64,000 nucleotides of DNA, taken from contig JAWPMV010000001.1 in NCBI GenBank assembly GCA_033391075.1, positions 2,356,001-2,420,000 on the forward strand, in the 5' to 3' direction. Each line of letters starts with the position of its first letter. Position 1 is the stretch's first letter. Under the pieces are notes generated by a model. That model made no database searches, was not told the DNA's origin, and saw only the letters and a program-made list of their open reading frames with translations. Below are positions 40,504 through 51,346 of the stretch, piece by piece. Both the position numbers and the translations under genes were made by a program. The stretch is from Bacteroidia bacterium. Lineage in GTDB: Bacteria; Bacteroidota; Bacteroidia; J057.

Positions 40504-42588
40504 TTACTGCAATTCTTCCAAACGCTTGAAAGCATCCAGATAATTGAGTTCAGCAGCGCGATTGAGGCTCTGCCTTGCAGTAATTGTATCTCTTGGATTA
40601 TTTCTCAGGAGAAGTAGGTGAGCATAGAGGTAATGTCCTGCAGGCCAATTCTTTAAGGCAGCTTTTTGTGCAAACTTCAAAGCTTTGGTATTGTCCACAT
40701 CTACTCCAAGTCCCATATGATATACATAAGCGAGAAGGTAAGCCCCGGAGCCATCCAATACCGTAGCTGCTTGCTCAAGTTGTATAGCACTTTGGCGATA
40801 TAAGTAATCAGAATCCTGAGATTTGGCCTGGCTGTAAAAACGCTTTCCGTCTGAAAGGGCCTTACGCATACGGCTTTCATCTTCCGGACTTAAATTGGTG
40901 GAGTTGATTCCCGATGTAGGTGCCAAGCGCTTGCTTGAATTATCCTCGCCAGATCTACTGGTCCCTTGATTTTTAGGTTGAGTCTGTGTTTTGGGAGGGG
41001 TCTTTTTTACCTCTTTCTTAGGTTCAGCAGTCTTCTTATTGGCATCCGGATTCAAATCAAGGCCTCTGGAATTCTGGGCAATTTGATTAGGATCTCCTGC
41101 GGTTCTTCCTAAGGCAAGGTTACAGCTTCCAGATCTTCGGAGAGATTGGGTATAAATGCTGTTTCCCTGATCCAGAATTTTGCTGTCTGTATAGGTAAAT
41201 GCCTTATTGAAATAAGCCAGTACTTTATTGCAATCTCTATCATCTGCATCGAAAAGCTCATTTCCCAACATCAAATATGCGAGTGCCAGGCTATCCTGAG
41301 GGATAGCTGGTTCAGCAGCTTCCCCTCTTTTGATCTTCGCTTTTTCATAATTGTCCAGCGCCAATTGATAGTTTTTCAATCGCATGGCTTCATGGGCCCA
41401 CTCAAGGTATTCTTCCGGCGTGCTTTCCAGAGATGCCAGATCAAATCTTCGCTCTACGCCAGAATTTCTGGCAATCAGGGTTCTGATCTCTGTTTTTCGC
41501 TTATTGGCTTCTGCGATCATACTTGCAGCCTCAGATCGGGTCATACTATTACTGGCAATTTCCCGATCGATGTGGTTCAAGGCTGAATCAATTTGATCGA
41601 GAGCATTATGGTAATTTTTCTGGCTAATGAGCTGCTCGGCATTGGCCATATATTTCTCGTACTTATTCTCTCGGTTTCCAACCCAAAGAGCTACAAGAAC
41701 CCATACAAATGCTACTGCAAGCACACCTATCACTACATTCGTCCAGAAATTGCCATTGCCTTTTTCTTCATATATATTTTCTGAAGCTGTCATAGTAGCA
41801 GCAGCCATTTCTTTTACTGGTTCAGTCTTGGCATCTACCGCATGTAAGGCCTCTCCAGCTTCTGTTACTACCATATTTCCCACGACATTATCCACCTGAA
41901 TGAGGTAGCAGGAATAATTGTCTTTGGTAAATCCTTCGCTCAGGCTATTTATTTCCCCAGCGATAAACTCAGGCTCAGGCTTATTTTTGGCGCTGAACAT
42001 AGCCGAAAGGGTAGTGCTACCTACTTGTTCGGCGATCCCTTTGGAACCCAAAAAGAAATAATCTTTTTCTGAGATATCATCATAGGAGATGTTCACACAA
42101 TTGATCGTAGCAGGTTTATGTGAGCCTTCAATAAACTCATCATCTTCTGCCCCAGGCCCTGAATTATTGGACCCAATCAATTCGGACTTTCCATGACTAT
42201 AATAATAAGCTTGTGAATCACCTACCCAGGCAAGACATACTTCACTTTTCCCAAAATGTAAGAGGGAAAGGGTAGCCTTCATTTGCTTTTTATCTTCGTG
42301 ATCCTCCTTATAAGCTGTCAATGCAGCTTCAGCTTTCATGAGAGCTGCTTCCAGATAGGCTTTTTGTGTGTTTTCAACCGGAGGTGTACTTGCATAGAAT
42401 TTAGCGAAAGAAAGGCCAATAAGCTTAGAGGCATTTTCTCCTGCATTGGGTCCTCCTTCTCCGTCGCATACAATGAACAACTCCTCTTCTACAGATGCCT
42501 TATCCTTAGTGGGCCAGATGAAATCCTCATTGAGAGATTTTCCACCGGCTTCATGCAAGGCTACCGGACGTTTAATTTGGATTTTCAT
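40504..42588 (-). CDS. Membrane-anchored PP2C-like protein with TPR and Sel1 repeats
   Basis: A 694-residue protein with an unusual architecture. An N-terminal PP2C-type phosphatase domain (1-240) has 'NEDF' (E21, D22), 'VCDGEGGPNAGENAS' (D42), 'AWVGDSQAYYY' (D124) and 'TKDNYSCYLI' (D223). In the motif that normally reads C-S-D-G a lysine occupies the metal-binding Asp position ('FFLGSKGIAEQVG', K183). A single membrane helix lies at about 281-303, then TPR-like helices (about 305-500), a Lys/Pro/Gln/Thr-rich linker (about 525-585), and Sel1-like repeats (about 610-694, 'YLLAYVYHMGLGVDVDN'). It may be a Ser/Thr phosphatase acting with the helical scaffold, or a pseudo-phosphatase. Charges around the membrane helix do not settle topology. 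Confidence 0.88.
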   Translation of the reverse strand: MKIQIKRPVALHEAGGKSLNEDFIWPTKDKASVEEELFIVCDGEGGPNAGENASKLIGLSFAKFYASTPPVENTQKAYLEAALMKAEAALTAYKEDHEDKKQMKATLSLLHFGKSEVCLAWVGDSQAYYYSHGKSELIGSNNSGPGAEDDEFIEGSHKPATINCVNISYDDISEKDYFFLGSKGIAEQVGSTTLSAMFSAKNKPEPEFIAGEINSLSEGFTKDNYSCYLIQVDNVVGNMVVTEAGEALHAVDAKTEPVKEMAAATMTASENIYEEKGNGNFWTNVVIGVLAVAFVWVLVALWVGNRENKYEKYMANAEQLISQKNYHNALDQIDSALNHIDREIASNSMTRSEAASMIAEANKRKTEIRTLIARNSGVERRFDLASLESTPEEYLEWAHEAMRLKNYQLALDNYEKAKIKRGEAAEPAIPQDSLALAYLMLGNELFDADDRDCNKVLAYFNKAFTYTDSKILDQGNSIYTQSLRRSGSCNLALGRTAGDPNQIAQNSRGLDLNPDANKKTAEPKKEVKKTPPKTQTQPKNQGTSRSGEDNSSKRLAPTSGINSTNLSPEDESRMRKALSDGKRFYSQAKSQDSDYLYRQSAIQLEQAATVLDGSGAYLLAYVYHMGLGVDVDNTKALKFAQKAALKNWPAGHYLYAHLLLLRNNPRDTITARQSLNRAAELNYLDAFKRLEELQ

Positions 42589-43110
42589 TTATATTCTGCT
42601 TGTAATGTTGTGGTGCTAAATATAAGCCAAAATAATGAATATTTCACGGATTTGAGGATTTTCCGATCTTAATTTCCAGAATTATTAAGGTAATTTCAAT
42701 GCTTGCAAAATCTTTATAAGACTGAACAGCATTGGAATATTTCATCTTTATGTCAAGCAATATCGAAAGAGTTAATGGGCCCTAATGCTATCAGAATTCG
42801 CCAAAAGAAACTATAGCCAATTTACTCAATCCAGAGAAAAGCCCCGGACTATTTACCACTGTCGTTTCGAGAGTTTAAACTATATTTAGAGGTAAACAAT
42901 CCACTTTTTAAATAAAGGAGTCTGGTGCTCAAAACAATTTAGAAATGTAGGGCTTTGTTTTTGCGGATAAATAATCACAAATATAGTCTCTCGGGTATTG
43001 ATGCTTTAAGCTATATTTCAATATTTTATTGTATTTATTATAACAACTTTTTCAAGTAAGACTAACCTTGCCCAATTCCCCGCAAATTTATTTCCAGGCT
43101 AATCAGCTAA
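42589..43110. other. AT-rich intergenic region without a gene
   Basis: About 520 bases with frequent stops in all frames. I see no tRNA, no strong hairpin and no convincing promoter. Its right end (43082-43099) encodes 'ANLFPG' in a frame different from the following T9SS remnant, compatible with a degraded gene end. Confidence 0.5.
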
Positions 43111-43338
43111 GTGACCCGGATGGGGACAATATTTTATCTGACATTTCCGGATATAGATAGGTGGGATAAAGAACTTCGGATAATCGATATATCTGGACAG
43201 GAAGTTATCTCAGATAAAATTCCTGTACAAAGCCAGGAAATGATGATTAATACCCAAGAATTAGCAGAGGGGATTTATTTTGTCCGGATTGAAATGGGAC
43301 TCAAACTTGGAACACATAAAATAGTTGTTCGCCATTAA
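43082..43338 (+). pseudogene. Remnant of a T9SS type A sorting domain
   Basis: The frame 43111-43338 encodes 75 residues of a T9SS type A sorting domain without the rest of a protein: 'GTIFYLTFPDIDRWDK', 'LRIIDISGQEVI', 'INTQELAEGIYFVRIE', ending 'THKIVVRH'. The frame's first codon is GTG directly after an in-frame stop, and no signal peptide precedes it. A possible start of the same domain ('ANLFPG', 43082-43099) is in another frame. A sorting domain alone cannot be secreted, so this is most likely the 3' end of a decayed secreted-protein gene; its terminator is still present at 43366. Coding could instead be a misread short ORF, but the domain match is clear. Confidence 0.6.
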
Positions 43339-43365
43339 ACTCCCTTTGCATTTAGTATAAAATAG

Positions 43366-44031: not shown

Positions 44032-45033
44032 CTATTGAGCCAGAATCCAGCCGTTTTTCAGGACACCGTTTTGTTTAAGTTGTTTATTTCTCTCTGAGGC
44101 AGCTGCTCTGCTCGTAGCGCGGAATACAGATACCCGATAGTTTCCTCCATCTTTCTTTGGCCAGAGGATTTCAGCATTGATGCCTTTACGGGCCATGCTT
44201 TCTTTGAAATCACCGGCTTGTTCAAAATTATTGAAACTTCCTCCAATGATGTAATAGTTTCCTACAGGAATGGCCTGGCCCAGATCTTTGATCTCAGGTG
44301 AAGAAGCACTGATGACCTTGGCAGCATCATTGGAACGGCTTACCATAGCAGGACTTGCTCCTGCAAAAGCTCCATTTTCTGAAGTGAATATCCAATTGGA
44401 AGTTCCCCTACGCTTGAGAAGGGCACTATAGGTTTGTGCCATCTTCTTGGTGCTGGAGGGTAGAACAGATACCTTATAACTTCCTCCTTCTTTTTCGGGG
44501 AAAAGTATTTCAGCATCAAATCCATCTTCAATCTTTTTCAAGCGGGCTCTATCAGCCTGCTCATAGGTTTGGAAGCTTCCTGTTATGACATAATAAGTTG
44601 GGAGCCCATTTCTATAGGCAGCAGAGTTTTCACTTAGCCTTTGCGTGGCGCCTGATCCTCTCATAACTGCAGAGGGTACTGTCGGTCTGGCCATAGAAAG
44701 AATCCAGCCTCCATCCATTCCTTTTCGCTTAAAAGAAGTGGATACCTGACTTACTTCAGAGCGATTGTTGGAGCGATAAACAGATACGCGATATCTGGAA
44801 GATCTGTCGCGGGAATCAGGGAGAAGGAGCTCTGCCGGGCGATTATATTTCGCTTCTATCTTAACTTTGCCAGATAGTGCGGACTCATAGCTGTTGAAAC
44901 TACCCACAACCAGGTAATAAGAACTCCCATTCTGGGCAAATAGGCCACTCACTGGCAAAAAAGCCAGGAGACAGCTAACAATAAAAATGCGGTAAATTTG
45001 CTTCCCTACGAACATGCTTAACGGTACATTCAT
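44032..45033 (-). CDS. Secreted protein with three SPOR domains
   Basis: A 333-residue protein with a signal peptide ending at 'SGLFAQ' (start at 45033 or ATG at 45015) and three tandem SPOR domains: about 37-115 ('YYLVVGSFNSYESAL'), 146-220 ('YYVITGSFQTYEQAD') and 257-333 ('YYIIGGSFNNFEQAG'). Each ends in a 'GW/NWI' strand. SPOR domains bind glycan strands that lack stem peptides, which concentrate at the division site. The mature protein has no other domain, so it is probably a peptidoglycan-bound periplasmic factor. The upstream gene on the same strand also carries a SPOR domain, 110 bp away. Confidence 0.93.
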   Translation of the reverse strand: MNVPLSMFVGKQIYRIFIVSCLLAFLPVSGLFAQNGSSYYLVVGSFNSYESALSGKVKIEAKYNRPAELLLPDSRDRSSRYRVSVYRSNNRSEVSQVSTSFKRKGMDGGWILSMARPTVPSAVMRGSGATQRLSENSAAYRNGLPTYYVITGSFQTYEQADRARLKKIEDGFDAEILFPEKEGGSYKVSVLPSSTKKMAQTYSALLKRRGTSNWIFTSENGAFAGASPAMVSRSNDAAKVISASSPEIKDLGQAIPVGNYYIIGGSFNNFEQAGDFKESMARKGINAEILWPKKDGGNYRVSVFRATSRAAASERNKQLKQNGVLKNGWILAQ

Positions 45034-45143
45034 GGTAATAAATGTTATTTAATAGATTGTCAATATCTATCATGTACTTTCGGAGGGAGCCTATGCTCAA
45101 TGTCATGTTTCGGTGCATGACATTGTAAATATACGCTATTTTT

Positions 45144-46355
45144 TTAATTCTGTTTTTTATCCTCAAAAATCCAGGTGGATTTTTTTCCTTTTGCCTTCAA
45201 CTTGTTGGCAAAACTCTCTACATCCGAGCGAGTAAAGCTTTTATAAACAGATACTCTATGCGTCAAAGATGAACCTGCAGCTGGAAATAATACAATGGCA
45301 TCATAGCCTTGGGTTTTCCATTTTGACACGGCTTTGTTGGCTGAATTAAGAGATTTAAAACTCCCAACAATCAAATGGTATTGGGTGGCTTCAGTATCTT
45401 CATCAGCGCTTCTGCTAAGCCTTGCATTGGCGTCCGCAGGGATGTCATCCTGACCACGGCTTCTTCCGAGGGATGGATTATCAGTTGCGGGTCCTTCTGC
45501 AAGCAAATCTTCAATTGCAGGAACAACTTCTTCTTCCTGAGGGCTTGATTTCTTCTCAGGAATTTCACGGCTTGTAGATGTTGCTGGTTCAGTTTGAGTT
45601 GAACCGGCATCTTCAACTTCTTGAGCAGGAATCTGCTCCGCTTCTGTAATTAATAACTCTTCTTCTGTATCTGATCTTTTTTCAGCCGGACGACGAGCGG
45701 CAAGTCGATCTTCAACGCTTTCAGGAGCATTGAACCGAACTTTCACACCCTGGCTTAGGCTGGAACGGTGAACAGTTATAGGACTTTCACTAATAATGAA
45801 GGCACAAAGTGCAGTAAGAAGAGCAACGAGCAAGATAGACTTTAGTCCAGTTAAACTGAGAATTTTTTTGGACTCAGGACGGTCTGGTTTCTTCATGTCT
45901 GTGTTTTTGCGATAAGTCGCGATTTCAGTAGTGGGTTCTTTAATGTTGATTGGACTCAGGCCAAAGTAATCTTCAGATAAATTATTTGATTTATTTTCGT
46001 AGTGTTCAAATGTTAATATATGATTATCGCCTTTCTTTAACAAGCCAATTTCCGCGATTTCAAACTTTCCCTTCTGCCGTAGCTCATGCAGGATAACTTG
46101 CCTGATCTGTGTACTGATTTGCTCCGCGACTTCCTCCTCTAATTTAATCTTATCAGTAAAATAAGTTGATAATAATATAGTGGGATCAATTTCCGTGCTA
46201 AACTCAATATCTGTTCCAGGAGGATGCAAATGAAGACCAGATTCATCAATCCAGGAGCCTCGATTTATCTTGCGAAAAGTTCCTATATCAGGGATTGAAA
46301 ATGCAGACAATTCCTGAAAGGCGCCTCTGAGATATATGTCGATATTAATATTCAT
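45144..46355 (-). CDS. Membrane protein with CCDC81-like HU domain and C-terminal SPOR domain
   Basis: A 403-residue protein. The N-terminal cytoplasmic part (1-120: 'FSIPDIGTFRKINRGSWIDESG', 'VILHELRQKGKFEIAEIGLLKKGDN') matches the bacterial CCDC81-like HU domain, which is related to the HU DNA-bending fold. One membrane helix lies at about 170-190 ('LKSILLVALLTALCAFII'). An acidic/Pro-rich periplasmic linker (about 210-320) leads to a SPOR domain (about 325-403, 'YHLIVGSFKSLNSANK'). This layout puts an HU-like domain in the cytoplasm and a septal peptidoglycan sensor in the periplasm. DNA binding by the HU-like part is not established. Confidence 0.92.
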   Translation of the reverse strand: MNINIDIYLRGAFQELSAFSIPDIGTFRKINRGSWIDESGLHLHPPGTDIEFSTEIDPTILLSTYFTDKIKLEEEVAEQISTQIRQVILHELRQKGKFEIAEIGLLKKGDNHILTFEHYENKSNNLSEDYFGLSPINIKEPTTEIATYRKNTDMKKPDRPESKKILSLTGLKSILLVALLTALCAFIISESPITVHRSSLSQGVKVRFNAPESVEDRLAARRPAEKRSDTEEELLITEAEQIPAQEVEDAGSTQTEPATSTSREIPEKKSSPQEEEVVPAIEDLLAEGPATDNPSLGRSRGQDDIPADANARLSRSADEDTEATQYHLIVGSFKSLNSANKAVSKWKTQGYDAIVLFPAAGSSLTHRVSVYKSFTRSDVESFANKLKAKGKKSTWIFEDKKQN

Positions 46356-46387
46356 AAGAGCAAAGGAAATTATCTAGAAAGAACGAA

Positions 46388-46424
46388 GAGATCCCGATAA
46401 TATTATCAGGATCTCAGTTTTTTT
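46388..46424. terminator. Hairpin between outer-membrane barrel and HU/SPOR genes
   Basis: A stem of 7 bp plus 4 bp with one C-A mismatch (46388-46399 with 46404-46415) is followed on the plus strand by a run of T residues (46418-46425). Both flanking genes are on the minus strand, where the tail is only moderately T-rich. It probably separates the TPR/barrel operon from the SPOR genes. Confidence 0.55.
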
Positions 46425-46491
46425 TGAAAAATCGAATGTCTCGGAAAATTGAAAGCTTTCTCTTCTTATGTTATTCGATTTTTTCATCTTT

Positions 46492-48147
46492 TTATAATGA
46501 CAGGGTGATACCCCCTCTAAAGTCTAATTGTCTCTCAGGATAATTATGCCAACGTTGGTAATTACTATTGAGTAAATTATACAAGTTTAAAAATACTGAG
46601 AAATTTTCATTTATTCTATAATCCGCACCAAAACTTATATCAACAAACAATCCATCACGTAATATTTCTCCAGTATCTGACAGTGCCATAGGTCGAGAAC
46701 CATAGGTTGTCAGATTAGCGGTGACACTCAATTGATCCTGATAAAGGTACTTCGCAAATACATCCAGCCTTAAAGGAGCGGCATTATAATATTTGGGCAA
46801 AGTGTTTGTCGTATAGTTGTTTACGGTTACTGCTGCACCTGCTTTGAAGTCTTCTTCCAGGTCATAATTTACTTCAGCATGGAAACCGAATACGGTTACC
46901 AAAGAATCATAAACCACATCAAAAGTTGAGCCTTGTGCTGTGTTTACATATATGGGTTGGTCGGTAATTCTTTTGTAATAAATTCGACCAGAAAAATCAA
47001 TTTCCCGGGCGATATTCCCCTTGATTCCACCATAAACATTCAATCTTTCTATGCTGGGCCTTAGGTTGATCAACCTTTGCATATAAGGATTTTGGTAGAT
47101 CATATCATAGTAGGTGTTGTTGGTCATACCACTCAGATAACCTGCCTGGATGGCAAATCCATCTGGTACAATCTCATAGCTGACCTCTGCTACGATACCC
47201 GCAAAACCTACCGAACTTGTGTCAGCATTATTGTTGAAAAAGTTCAATTGAGGACCAATGCGTAGTTGGAGTTGATCGCCTTGTAAGGAGAAGTAGGGGA
47301 GGGCATCCAAAAAGATTCGGGCCTGATTGAGGTCCTCCGTCTTTCCGGTCATGAATTCAATATTGGTTTCTATACCTATTTTGGCTTTTTCTCCCAGAAA
47401 ATATCCGGCATTGGGAGATAAATTCAGAATCAGATCCCGATTCCCATTATTTCCGTTAAAGAATTTTAGATTTGTTCCAATATCATAATCATAGACCGCT
47501 CTGGGGTCATAATTACTCACCACATTTCCTCCAATCTTTACTCGTGTAAATCCATTTCTTAAGGCATCCTCTCTTAATTCCTCTGTTGCAAAATCAGCCG
47601 TATCAGCATAATTGAAATAGGAGGTATTGTAAATATGGACTCCTCCATTTACGGTAGCGGCATCCGAAATGTACTTCAGTTTTGCATTTGCCTCATTCCG
47701 CCTGAATTTCCGCAGCGGTATTTGGGCATCTTTGTGTGCTGAAATATGGGTGAAATCAAAGCCATAGTCGACATTTTGATCTCGTCCATTATTGAGGTAG
47801 AGTTTGGCATAAGGGGTTACAAATCTTCCCAATCCCAGTTTCAGGTAATTGTTGAGCAATTGTTCCTTGCGTGTTCTGGGGAGTGGTTTGATCTGAGGAG
47901 GTGCAGGCTCAAAATCCGTCTGGATATAGAAATCCCTGGAAAAATAATTTTGAGGACCTGACTGGCCTTTTTTGATCTCCTGATAAGGAGGCGCTACAAA
48001 AGGCTTATTGCTGTCTTTTACATCTTCAACCCTTTCGTTTTCCAGGGTAAGGGTATCCTTACCGGCCAGAGGATCAGGTTGAGCGATCATTTGGTTGAGT
48101 CCTATGCAGCTGAATAGGATGAATATGCTAAGAATTCGAAAATTCAT
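46492..48147 (-). CDS. Outer-membrane beta-barrel protein (porin-like, TonB-receptor C-terminal type)
   Basis: A 551-residue protein with a signal peptide (1-23, 'CIGLNQMIAQ') and a barrel made of alternating aromatic/polar strands, ending in 'LDFRGGITLSL'. No plug domain or TonB box is visible, so it is not a full TonB-dependent receptor, although strands near the end ('FSVFLNLYNLLNSNYQRWHNYPE') are like those of receptor barrels. An N-terminal periplasmic segment (24-90) is rich in Pro ('PAPPQIKPLPRTRKEQLL'). It starts 37 bp after the TPR gene, so the two form an operon and probably one envelope complex. Function unknown. Confidence 0.85.
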   Translation of the reverse strand: MNFRILSIFILFSCIGLNQMIAQPDPLAGKDTLTLENERVEDVKDSNKPFVAPPYQEIKKGQSGPQNYFSRDFYIQTDFEPAPPQIKPLPRTRKEQLLNNYLKLGLGRFVTPYAKLYLNNGRDQNVDYGFDFTHISAHKDAQIPLRKFRRNEANAKLKYISDAATVNGGVHIYNTSYFNYADTADFATEELREDALRNGFTRVKIGGNVVSNYDPRAVYDYDIGTNLKFFNGNNGNRDLILNLSPNAGYFLGEKAKIGIETNIEFMTGKTEDLNQARIFLDALPYFSLQGDQLQLRIGPQLNFFNNNADTSSVGFAGIVAEVSYEIVPDGFAIQAGYLSGMTNNTYYDMIYQNPYMQRLINLRPSIERLNVYGGIKGNIAREIDFSGRIYYKRITDQPIYVNTAQGSTFDVVYDSLVTVFGFHAEVNYDLEEDFKAGAAVTVNNYTTNTLPKYYNAAPLRLDVFAKYLYQDQLSVTANLTTYGSRPMALSDTGEILRDGLFVDISFGADYRINENFSVFLNLYNLLNSNYQRWHNYPERQLDFRGGITLSL

Positions 48148-48184
48148 AATTCTGGTTTTGATAGATTAAGGCTTGGGTAGAGGA

Positions 48185-51100
48185 TTAATTATTATTGTTG
48201 TTGCCACCGAGGTCTTCAACACCCCCTGAATCAAGGGCATTCTCTTCAGCCTCAATCTTATCCAATCGATCCTGGGCTGCTTTTTGTATATCGGGGAATC
48301 TATCCTCTGCGATCAAGCTTTCCAGGGTTCCTTTTGCCTGGAAGGTATTTCCAAGAGCCATATAAGCGTCAGCCGCAACCAAAAAGGTTCTGGCTTTCCA
48401 TTCATTAAAGCTCGGATAGTTATTTTTCATATAGATGGCAGACTCTGTTACCTGGGTAAACTTGTCATCTGCATCCTGAAAGAATCGTTCTGCATCAGAA
48501 TTGCCCTGGCGATCCAGAGATTCGGCTCTCCTATAAAATGCCTCACCCTGATCCAGCATAATTTTGGTAATCATGAACTGAGACTCTGCACCAAAGGCAT
48601 TTTTAAATTCTCCTTCTATATCAGTGAAAGTATCCAGAGCTGCATTCATTTGCCCATCGAGATACTGGCTATTCCCTATGCCTACCAAAGCTTTGGTGCG
48701 TGAATAGGCGGATGCTTCCTGATTTTGGGCAATGCTGCGAAAAATATTGATGGCAAGACCGTAATCTTCCATGGCACTATAATTCTTGGCAATACCAAAT
48801 TGAGCAGTTACCCGATTCTGAACTTCATCTGCAACGGTTTCCAATTCCTGGTAAAGGGCCAAACTGCTTTGGTAATCTCTCTGATTGAAGCGAATCTCTC
48901 CGGCTTCCTGTAGCGCCAGGATAGTGAAATCATTCTTGGAAGGAGTTTCGTAGACTCGCTGATAATCATTGAGTGCTTTGTTGAATTCTCCTAGTTCCCG
49001 ATAACATCTTGCTCTAAATAAGAATGATTCATAATAATTAGGACCATTTTTATAATCCTTTATGTAGGTAGAAAACTGTTCAATGGCAGAACGATAATTC
49101 TGGGCAAAGAATCGGTCCTGACCTGTATTGAATACCAGGCCAGCGAGGTTTTCACTTACATCCGGATTGCTATTTCTGTAATCTCTGAGTATACGGTCGA
49201 ATTCCCTTTCAGAAAGGAGGGCAGAAAGGTTGTCCAAAGCGACCTGGGCATTGTCCTGATCCTGCGGATAGTCGGTTACGACTCTTTTGAAATAGCGGAT
49301 TGCCGCTTTTTCATCTCCAGAATTGTAAGAAGCCAGTGCCAATCTGTTATAGGCTGGAGCTGCCAAAGGACTTTTTGGATATTCATCAACCAGTTTCTTG
49401 GAATAATAGGCGGCTTTGTTATTGTCTTCCAGCCAGGTTCCATAGATTTCAGAGATTCTGTCCAAGGCATCATCTCTATAACTGGACTTGCGGAAACTCC
49501 TGATCAATCTGTCAAATTGTCCCACGGAACCCTGATAATTGTTTTGGCGGTAAAAGGATTCTCCCATTTGGTACATCGCATAATCCGCCCCTTTGTATTT
49601 AAAGTCTACTACGCGATTGTAATAGGTATTGGACTCTCTGTATTGTTTCAAAAGAAAAAGGCAGTCACCTGAACGAAGGAAGGCATCAACTACCTGGTCT
49701 TTCTTTCCATTACGTCCCGCATTGCTGATATAATCTTTAAATCCCTGGAGAGCGTTTCTATAATTTTTCTCTTTGAACCAGGTCCAGGCTACCCCATAAT
49801 AGGCCTCTGCATAAAACTCATTCCTGTTTACATTTCTGGTTCTCAGAAAATCTCTAAAGGTATTGCGAGCTCCGGAGAAATCTCCCTGGCGGAACTGAGT
49901 TTCAGCCAGCCAATATTTAGCACTCAGGCTCATATCGGGATCGACATTATTGCTTATAGCTTTGCTAAAATACCTCCCCGCTTTTGGGAAATCCGGTCTT
50001 TCATATAGCTCAAGCCCATAAAAGTAAGTTACCGTTTGATAGGCCTTTTGGGCTCTGTCTGTTCTGGGGGGATAGTTCTCAAAATATTGAATAGATCGAG
50101 GGTAATCCCGGGTATATAAATAGGCTTCACCTATCATGGCTCGAGCCTCATTGGTATTTTCTGATCGGGGAAAATCCTGCGTCAGTCGAGTCAGGGATTG
50201 CAAGGCTTCCTGATAGTCTTCTGTTGCAAAACTCACTTTTGCCGATTGGAACAAAGCATCTTCTACAATTTCCGGATTGGCATAAGAGGTTTCCTGAGAA
50301 GCTCTTTGGAAGGCAAATTTGGCGCTAGCCTCATCTTTGGGATTCTTTTTCAGAAAACAGAATCCGAGATAATAAGAAGCGACTTGCTCCAGCGAATCCT
50401 TGGAGCCGAGGGCTCTTTCAAAATGTGGAACAGCCTCTGTAAATAAACTTTGTTTGTACTCACTATATCCAAAACGGAAATAGTCAGTTTTATTCATCCG
50501 ACCTCTACTTTTTGTATAGCGTCCGAAATATTCTGAGGTCCTTCGGTAGTCTTTTCTTTCAAAAGAGGCATTTGCTACTACATAGAGGACCTGTACGTCC
50601 TTATTGGAAATCCTTCCCCGGATGAGCTCATCAGCCAAAACAAAGAGTTCGTCGTATCTCTTTAATTTTAGCAGAGAATTTGCCAGATATACGCGGGTTT
50701 CCTGTGCATATTTTTTTGAAGATTTGAGTTCGTCAAAAGCGATAACTGCTTCTTCCCAGTTTCTTTCTTTGTACAAGATTACCGAAGCATAGTAGTTGGC
50801 ATCTTCCTGGTATTTGCCGGGTTTTCTTGCAGCCATTTGAAAGAAGCGAGTTGCATCTCTATTTCTTCCATCCATGAAATAGCTGTATCCCAACATAAAT
50901 ACTACCTCATCAAATCTTTCTTGATCGAGGCTACCACTTTGGTAGGCCTCAATTAGAGGCGAGATTGATGCCCCGTAATTTCTTCTTTCGTAGTAGAATT
51001 TTCCGAGGTAATAGCGCATCACACTGGATTTGGTGTTTGCGCCATAGGTGCGTAGGTAATTGGTCATTAAGACCTCTGCATCTTCTCTTTCGAGATGATA

Positions 51101-51346
51101 TGCGCCGAGTGCCTGCATGTATTTTGCATTGGCGTGGAGGTCATTATAGCTTGCATTACGAATGTCTTCCTCAGCATTCAGGAAGGCTTCTACTTTTTTC
51201 TGGGCTGCTCCATATTTCCCTTTGTCAAAGAGTTCAACTGCATCATCATAGAGCGGTTGAAAAGGGTAAAAAGGAGAGAGTTGTGCCTCTGCCAGACCTA
51301 CTGAAATCAGCAGAATAAAAATGCATACGGCATGTGGTAATCTCAT
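48185..51346 (-). CDS. Large periplasmic tetratricopeptide-repeat protein
   Basis: A 1053-residue protein with a signal peptide (1-21) and TPR-like repeats over almost its whole length, about two dozen helical hairpins ('GKYGAAQKKVEAFL', 'QGDFSGARNTFRDFL', 'GDEKAAIRYFKRVVTDYPQ'). It ends in a Gly/Asn-rich tail. No lipobox is present, so it is soluble in the periplasm or surface-bound rather than a lipoprotein like PorW/SprE. Such large TPR proteins scaffold envelope complexes. Its operon partner is the downstream outer-membrane barrel. The next gene upstream (ribBA) is separated by 316 bp. Confidence 0.9.
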   Translation of the reverse strand: MRLPHAVCIFILLISVGLAEAQLSPFYPFQPLYDDAVELFDKGKYGAAQKKVEAFLNAEEDIRNASYNDLHANAKYMQALGAYHLEREDAEVLMTNYLRTYGANTKSSVMRYYLGKFYYERRNYGASISPLIEAYQSGSLDQERFDEVVFMLGYSYFMDGRNRDATRFFQMAARKPGKYQEDANYYASVILYKERNWEEAVIAFDELKSSKKYAQETRVYLANSLLKLKRYDELFVLADELIRGRISNKDVQVLYVVANASFERKDYRRTSEYFGRYTKSRGRMNKTDYFRFGYSEYKQSLFTEAVPHFERALGSKDSLEQVASYYLGFCFLKKNPKDEASAKFAFQRASQETSYANPEIVEDALFQSAKVSFATEDYQEALQSLTRLTQDFPRSENTNEARAMIGEAYLYTRDYPRSIQYFENYPPRTDRAQKAYQTVTYFYGLELYERPDFPKAGRYFSKAISNNVDPDMSLSAKYWLAETQFRQGDFSGARNTFRDFLRTRNVNRNEFYAEAYYGVAWTWFKEKNYRNALQGFKDYISNAGRNGKKDQVVDAFLRSGDCLFLLKQYRESNTYYNRVVDFKYKGADYAMYQMGESFYRQNNYQGSVGQFDRLIRSFRKSSYRDDALDRISEIYGTWLEDNNKAAYYSKKLVDEYPKSPLAAPAYNRLALASYNSGDEKAAIRYFKRVVTDYPQDQDNAQVALDNLSALLSEREFDRILRDYRNSNPDVSENLAGLVFNTGQDRFFAQNYRSAIEQFSTYIKDYKNGPNYYESFLFRARCYRELGEFNKALNDYQRVYETPSKNDFTILALQEAGEIRFNQRDYQSSLALYQELETVADEVQNRVTAQFGIAKNYSAMEDYGLAINIFRSIAQNQEASAYSRTKALVGIGNSQYLDGQMNAALDTFTDIEGEFKNAFGAESQFMITKIMLDQGEAFYRRAESLDRQGNSDAERFFQDADDKFTQVTESAIYMKNNYPSFNEWKARTFLVAADAYMALGNTFQAKGTLESLIAEDRFPDIQKAAQDRLDKIEAEENALDSGGVEDLGGNNNNN

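Follow-up and report, generated by a model that had tools for sequence, protein, structure and literature searches.

The reverse strand of the window, by which we mean the whole 64,000-nucleotide stretch of DNA analysed, carries a gene for a 694-aa protein with homologues that align along its whole length. An N-terminal PP2C-like domain is joined through a variable linker to a single membrane helix, which is followed by a TPR-like region, a low-complexity linker and a Sel1-like domain. The features of the gene, with residue numbers counted along the protein, are as follows.

40504-42588 (-), whole gene from the open reading frame list: PP2C-like domain, membrane helix, TPR-like region, linker and Sel1-like domain, 694 aa
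41881-42588 (-), PP2C-like domain, residues 1-236, predicted cytoplasmic (Pfam, Foldseek, VIA-align)
42523-42525 (-), D22, motif 1, second-metal (Mn2) residue, kept; invariant in 27 tree rows and 92 background rows
42463-42465 (-), D42, motif 2, ligand of Mn1 and Mn2, kept; invariant in the same 27 and 92 rows
42217-42219 (-), D124, motif 5, third-metal residue, kept here; Asn or Thr in the 4 flapless orthologues that retain Asp183 (residue table)
42130-42177 (-), flap remnant, residues 138-153, 15 residues (alignment; pLDDT below 50 at 142-149)
42040-42042 (-), K183, codon AAA, replacing the motif 8 Asp, a ligand of Mn1 and Mn3 (alignments)
41920-41922 (-), D223, motif 11, Mn1 residue, kept (residue table)
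41677-41745 (-), single membrane helix, residues 282-304 (helix in the model; hydrophobic stretch in homologues)
41098-41667 (-), TPR-like helical region, residues 308-497, predicted periplasmic, including C453 and C489 (structure models)
41122-41232 (-), cysteine pair C453 and C489, kept or lost jointly in flapless proteins
40891-41097 (-), low-complexity linker, residues 498-566 (mostly pLDDT below 50; mean pairwise identity 0.18)
40507-40890 (-), Sel1-like domain, residues 567-694, the best conserved part (Pfam, phmmer, VIA-align; identity 0.42)

The order of these parts had been proposed in a first-pass annotation made from the letters alone, and is borne out by fold searches and structure models. 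Pfam PP2C_2 matches at 27.3 bits (cut-off 24) over residues 19-144, ending ahead of motif 8, which is consistent with an eroded second half of the domain, and the NCBIfam Stp1 profile scores 71.2 bits, under its cut-off of 230. The best Foldseek matches of the domain are PstP (E 2.8e-11) and tPphA, with Stp1 also matched, and VIA-align superposes it on tPphA (5d2u) with Z 25.2 and 2.5 Å over 209 residues. On these models, residues 1-236 adopt the PP2C/PPM beta-sandwich fold, an assignment that is not due to chance. One structure model was built from a 6-sequence alignment (mean pLDDT 74, pTM 0.40), as was a second one (mean pLDDT 75.5). Helix 282-304 is present in the first model, with low confidence from residue 298 on, and a hydrophobic stretch can be seen by eye at its position in the alignment of full-length homologues.

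For the C-terminal half, the Pfam score for Sel1 (28.5 bits) falls slightly short of the cut-off of 30.7, phmmer relates residues 597-686 to the Sel1-type HcpC chain 1ouv (E 3.7e-5), and the C-terminal model superposes on the Sel1 protein 6orc with Z 14.0 and 3.1 Å over 118 residues. The best Foldseek match for this half is likewise a Sel1 protein (E 1.1e-3), with nothing at E 0.001 or below. Taken with the models, residues 567-694 contain Sel1 helical repeats. Residues 308-497 form helices in the models and give no Pfam TPR hit.

The motifs of the PP2C domain read N20-E-D22, V-C-D42-G-E-G-G, G-D124-S, G-S-K183-G and K-D223-N, and its key sites are K17, D22, D42, G43, D124, K183 and D223. That D42, D124 and D223 are retained and that the usual C-S-D-G motif reads G-S-K-G is a direct reading already made in the first-pass annotation, which did not mention K17, the residue that stands in place of the phosphate-site Arg. 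In the structure of SpoIIE, as described in PMC3517971, the first metal is held by the aspartates of motifs 2, 8 and 11, and the second (Mn2) would be held by the motif 1 Asp together with the Asp and Gly of motif 2. According to the same report, the residue corresponding to the motif 8 Asp forms a bridge between metals 1 and 3 in bacterial phosphatases other than SpoIIE; the third metal is bound by the Asp of motif 5 as well and, in the case of PstP, by a serine in the flap (PMC3517971). The motif numbers were matched to residues of the window through the alignments of this analysis. The earlier statement that the motif 8 Asp coordinates the second metal was therefore wrong, since by the account in PMC3517971 this residue is an Mn1 ligand that bridges Mn1 and Mn3; its replacement by K183 means the loss of a ligand for metals 1 and 3 and not of one for the second metal. 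The set of aspartates from motifs 1, 2, 8 and 11 that serves metals 1 and 2 is incomplete, D22, D42 and D223 being present and motif 8 providing K183. The second-metal residues D22, D42 and G43 show no variation in the 27 tree rows or the 92 background rows. K17 is no argument against activity, because the corresponding substitution in tPphA, R13K, leaves about 41% of kcat/Km with pNPP (reported in PMC3375153).

A second loss lies outside what had been observed before. Between motifs 5 and 8 the alignment leaves 15 residues for the flap in the 694-aa protein, where the rows that have a flap show 33-35, and the flap subdomain of the Stp1/PstP type, with its third-metal site, is absent. In the background the stretch measures 33-34 residues in 84 of 85 PP2C domains and 23 in the remaining one. 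Residues required for catalysis are lost in an otherwise conserved PP2C fold, as is typical of a pseudophosphatase.

A family profile built from 11 full-length relatives matches all 13 of the host-family genomes covered, at full length in 11 and as contig-end fragments in 2. The layout, said earlier to have no described counterpart, is hence not confined to this genome. Of 9 genomes from elsewhere in the order, 7 have matches, all of them to part of the protein only; the named relatives are Bacteroidota MAGs (6 loci), and a scan confirmed no viral relatives. The profile PF13672 itself failed to detect the family members of G009 and G007. In a tree of 27 PP2C domains, inferred with the trait columns removed, the 694-aa protein falls within an 8-member flapless clade (support 96/93) and the flap changes once; when the conserved domains are combined, the 8 flapless rows separate from 3 flapped full-length rows with support 99/99. 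The nearest relative (L031), with 54% identity over the PP2C domain, has Asp183 and Asn124; L039, one of the flapped relatives, has the flap and every key residue. The host family also has PP2C paralogues (L040, L041, L042 and L046, from G012, G008, G011 and G012) with a full flap and all key residues, and with a C-terminal part that differs from that of the 694-aa protein; L041 and L046 have a longer linker ahead of a membrane helix and a C-x5-C pair behind it. These four may resemble the ancestral active form.

Residues 124 and 183 of the flapless proteins read D/K (this protein), E/R, D/S, D/A, N/D, T/D, T/D and N/D, so that exactly one of the two positions is acidic in all eight. Lysine is accordingly not fixed at 183, being limited to this genome among the clade members, and homologues with the normal Asp, listed by the first-pass annotation among the findings that would tell against its reading, account for half of the clade (4/8), the others having K, R, S and A. 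There is no sign of a shift in the register of the motif 8 Asp, which the annotation had likewise named as something that would undo its reading: the stretch aligns gap-free, and both G184 and D176 are invariant in the clade. Of the 85 PP2C domains sampled outside the clade, all have Asp183 and 81 have both acids, a combination seen in none of the 8 flapless proteins (Fisher p 5e-9, kinship ignored); these figures come from a background fetched with profiles favouring normal PP2Cs and covering part of the matches, so that strongly degenerate domains may be under-counted. Of the 105 background rows, 13 lacked one or more sites and were left out; five of them show residue 183, with Asp in all five and Asn at 124 in four, and adding these rows, which show both positions, brings the count with both acids to 82 of 90. 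Within the 8 flapless rows the hypergeometric chance of one-acid exclusivity is 0.014, and the number of independent pairs is 1 on supported branches to 3 on all branches, below what a sign test needs. The best trees place 3 changes of Asp183 (27-domain tree) or 2 (conserved domains combined), and the AU test does not reject a loss that happened once (p 0.119 and 0.136), for which reason the claim of several independent losses was dropped. A link between loss of Asp183 and possession of a second PP2C_2 gene was also set aside, with such a gene in 2 of 4 losers and 1 of 4 keepers and no clear pattern.

We regard it as roughly 60% probable that the 694-aa protein acts in this genome as a transmembrane pseudophosphatase or adaptor. 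It would be a bitopic inner-membrane protein with its PP2C-fold domain in the cytoplasm, where the missing motif 8 Asp would deny it a normal Mn1 site and any Mn3 site; with this ligand and the flap, which serves as substrate lid, both gone, the domain is presumably inactive here. One metal is probably retained in the Mn2 site, between D22, D42 and the carbonyl of G43. The role of the domain would then be to bind phosphoproteins, kinases or a partner phosphatase, and the periplasmic arm of TPR-like and Sel1 parts, tethered across the membrane, would bind an envelope protein, giving a transmembrane adaptor or sensor. On this view the protein probably acts in signalling through what it binds and not through catalysis, although the motif 8 Asp is retained in half of the nearest relatives. 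The original suggestion of a pseudo-phosphatase or of altered metal use, which had named the wrong metal, here gains comparative evidence drawn from sequences.

The alternative that fares best, unlikely as it is, holds that the protein is still an enzyme, in which D124 has become a ligand of the first metal to give a rearranged two-metal phosphatase that is slow or specialised. D124 and D223 are both kept here, which makes an unusual metal site possible, and an acid at 124 (Asp or Glu) is found in precisely those four of the eight flapless proteins that lack Asp183, as if compensating. SpoIIE, moreover, has a short flap and no motif 5 Asp and is described as a genuine phosphatase (PMC3517971). 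However, the residues that replace Asp183 (K, R, S and A) are chemically dissimilar and two of them cationic, the motif 8 Asp occurs in every one of the 85 other sampled PP2Cs, and the known PPM phosphatases all require at least M1 and M2, according to PMC12002173. Since the nearest relative has Asp183, catalysis could matter in close relatives, and the PP2C module of some orthologues may still be a two-metal enzyme.

A different possibility, and an improbable one, is neutral decay, with the PP2C domain drifting without a role and the Sel1/TPR-like arm alone of importance. Positions 17, 46, 102, 126, 183 and 223, which change little or not at all across the 19 flapped rows, do vary in the 8 flapless ones, but the frame of the domain is open in all 8 clade members, and D22, D42, G43, G123 and G184 are invariant among them. 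Mean pairwise identity among the 11 full-length proteins is 0.42 for the Sel1 domain, 0.38 for the PP2C domain, 0.20 for the TPR-like region and 0.14-0.18 for the linkers, the linker adjoining the PP2C domain having the value of 0.14, which argues that the PP2C part is still constrained.

The proposed adaptor also depends on its orientation. Past the membrane helix, six of the eight flapless proteins contain two cysteines and no more, located where C453 and C489 stand here, and the other two (L035 and L037) lack both, each having one Cys elsewhere in the C-terminal half. This joint presence or absence suggests a C453-C489 disulfide, which would put the C-terminal half in the periplasm and the PP2C domain in the cytoplasm. 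A cysteine pair of similar spacing is found in L043 and L044; the flapped relatives are less tidy, with four cysteines in L038 and three in L039 in the same half. The reverse topology, with the PP2C domain outside and the Sel1 arm in the cytoplasm, seems very unlikely. There are more positive charges after the membrane helix than before it in this protein, although the flanking charges do not decide topology; against this arrangement stand the location of the paired cysteines in the C-terminal half, the lack of a signal peptide recognisable by eye ahead of the 281-residue N-terminal part, and the expectation that partners of a PP2C domain would be cytoplasmic. A sequencing or assembly error at codon 183, for which nothing speaks except the oddity of the residue, is of negligible probability, because AAA lies two bases from either Asp codon and could not arise from one by a single base error, the frame is open, and three relatives from other genomes also lack the Asp.

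Two pseudophosphatases, TAB1 and PHLPP2, which are animal proteins without a membrane helix, and the soluble protein RssB of E. coli bear comparison with the adaptor proposed here. TAB1 and PHLPP2 are described as having lost the Mn1/Mn3 ligands and as holding a single metal, assigned to M2 (PMC12002173), which is the content we infer for the 694-aa protein. PHLPP2 is joined to a leucine-rich-repeat scaffold, which may be compared with the repeat arm here, but unlike the 694-aa protein it retains the FLAP and binds zinc through Cys (PMC12002173). The M2 zinc ligands given for PHLPP2 (C799, D820, D822 and D1024; PMC12002173) differ from the motif 1/motif 2 set given for Mn2 in PMC3517971, so that the likeness is one of kind rather than residue by residue. 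In RssB a PP2C/PPM domain has been turned into an adaptor. Its homologue in P. aeruginosa is active, while RssB itself, which also carries a receiver domain, owes its inactivity to C-terminal truncation (PMC12143880); in the 694-aa protein the domain is of full length and the active site substituted. SpoIIE, with its short flap and no third-metal site, is like the four flapless orthologues that retain Asp183, and differs from the 694-aa protein in keeping the motif 8 Asp (Asp746) and its activity (PMC3517971). With the Stp1/PstP/tPphA phosphatases of the PPM family the 694-aa protein shares the fold, the motif order and D22, D42, D124 and D223; it departs from them in the Lys at motif 8, the Lys for the phosphate-site Arg, the loss of the flap and the added membrane-tethered arm.

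A survey of bacterial PP2C proteins from 2025 names TPR among the partner domains, and its main text uses neither the word Sel1 nor the word inactive (PMC12088040). In PMC7159879 the terms PP2C and Sel1 each appear a single time. Among the matches listed in a search of literature titles and abstracts, a scope to which most subscription journals do not belong, none describes this protein. Bacterial PP2C pseudophosphatases are already known from RssB (PMC12143880); what is new here is a full-length PP2C domain with a substituted active site, a graded series of orthologues, and a membrane arm with a Sel1 domain.

How the one-acid pattern arose can be pictured as follows. Loss of the flap would have weakened the third metal and left residues 124 and 183, of like charge, opposite one another, a strain from which each lineage would have gained relief by giving up one or the other. 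Where 124 was dropped, a SpoIIE-like two-metal site would result, perhaps still active; where 183 was dropped, as here, metal site 1 would be destroyed and normal catalysis would end, and in this genome K183 would place a cation near D42, D124 and D223. As a tentative extension, and one we think doubtful as it stands, the protein might switch among close relatives between two states, a phosphatase with two metals and a pseudophosphatase with one: after loss of the flap and the third metal exactly one acid survives, with motif 8 kept for catalysis or motif 5 kept for an adaptor, and in two of the cases that keep motif 5 a Lys or Arg would fill the hole left by the metal.

Were such a switch real, the signalling role of the protein would be independent of catalysis. 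Apart from this reading, a single host family offers a natural series of steps by which a metal phosphatase may become an adaptor, in which the flap and third metal are lost first and the first metal afterwards, the second-metal residues stay constant, and the presumed end state resembles the one-metal TAB1 and PHLPP2. The protein also points to a membrane receptor-like use of the PP2C fold in a class where PP2C_2 genes are uncommon (of 395 genomes sampled from the class, 85 have a match).

All 13 host-family genomes covered contain Ser/Thr kinases, so phosphoprotein partners exist in principle, none of them linked to this gene. Among the part of the neighbouring genes that was scanned with Pfam there is no kinase, and an operon link to one was rejected, the scanned neighbours belonging to other families (TRAP transporter, chorismate synthase, M50 protease, PIG-L, lipocalin-like, SPOR, TPR, SLT, BipA, GAF, subtilase, aminotransferase, glyoxalase and others). 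The only RNA gene in the 64-kb window at Rfam gathering scores is a tRNA-Arg. Elsewhere in the same genome (C4:88948-90398), a PP2C with all key residues adjoins a Ser/Thr kinase, and a counterpart of this pair is found in G001.

Upstream of the gene, within a 1.4-kb gap poor in open reading frames, a frame at 43080-43340 (+) resembles by eye a C-terminal sorting tail of type IX secretion, and is apparently the orphan remains of a decayed gene. Further upstream lies a cluster at 44032-51346 (-). One of its proteins has three SPOR stretches and is weakly similar to FtsN, at a score below cut-off, and another SPOR protein is weakly similar to HU-CCDC81; with them are a protein of 551 aa that matches no family and a TPR protein of 1053 aa. 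The genes for the last two are common to 3 other host-family loci and the SPOR genes to 2, and the cluster is possibly an envelope or division module.
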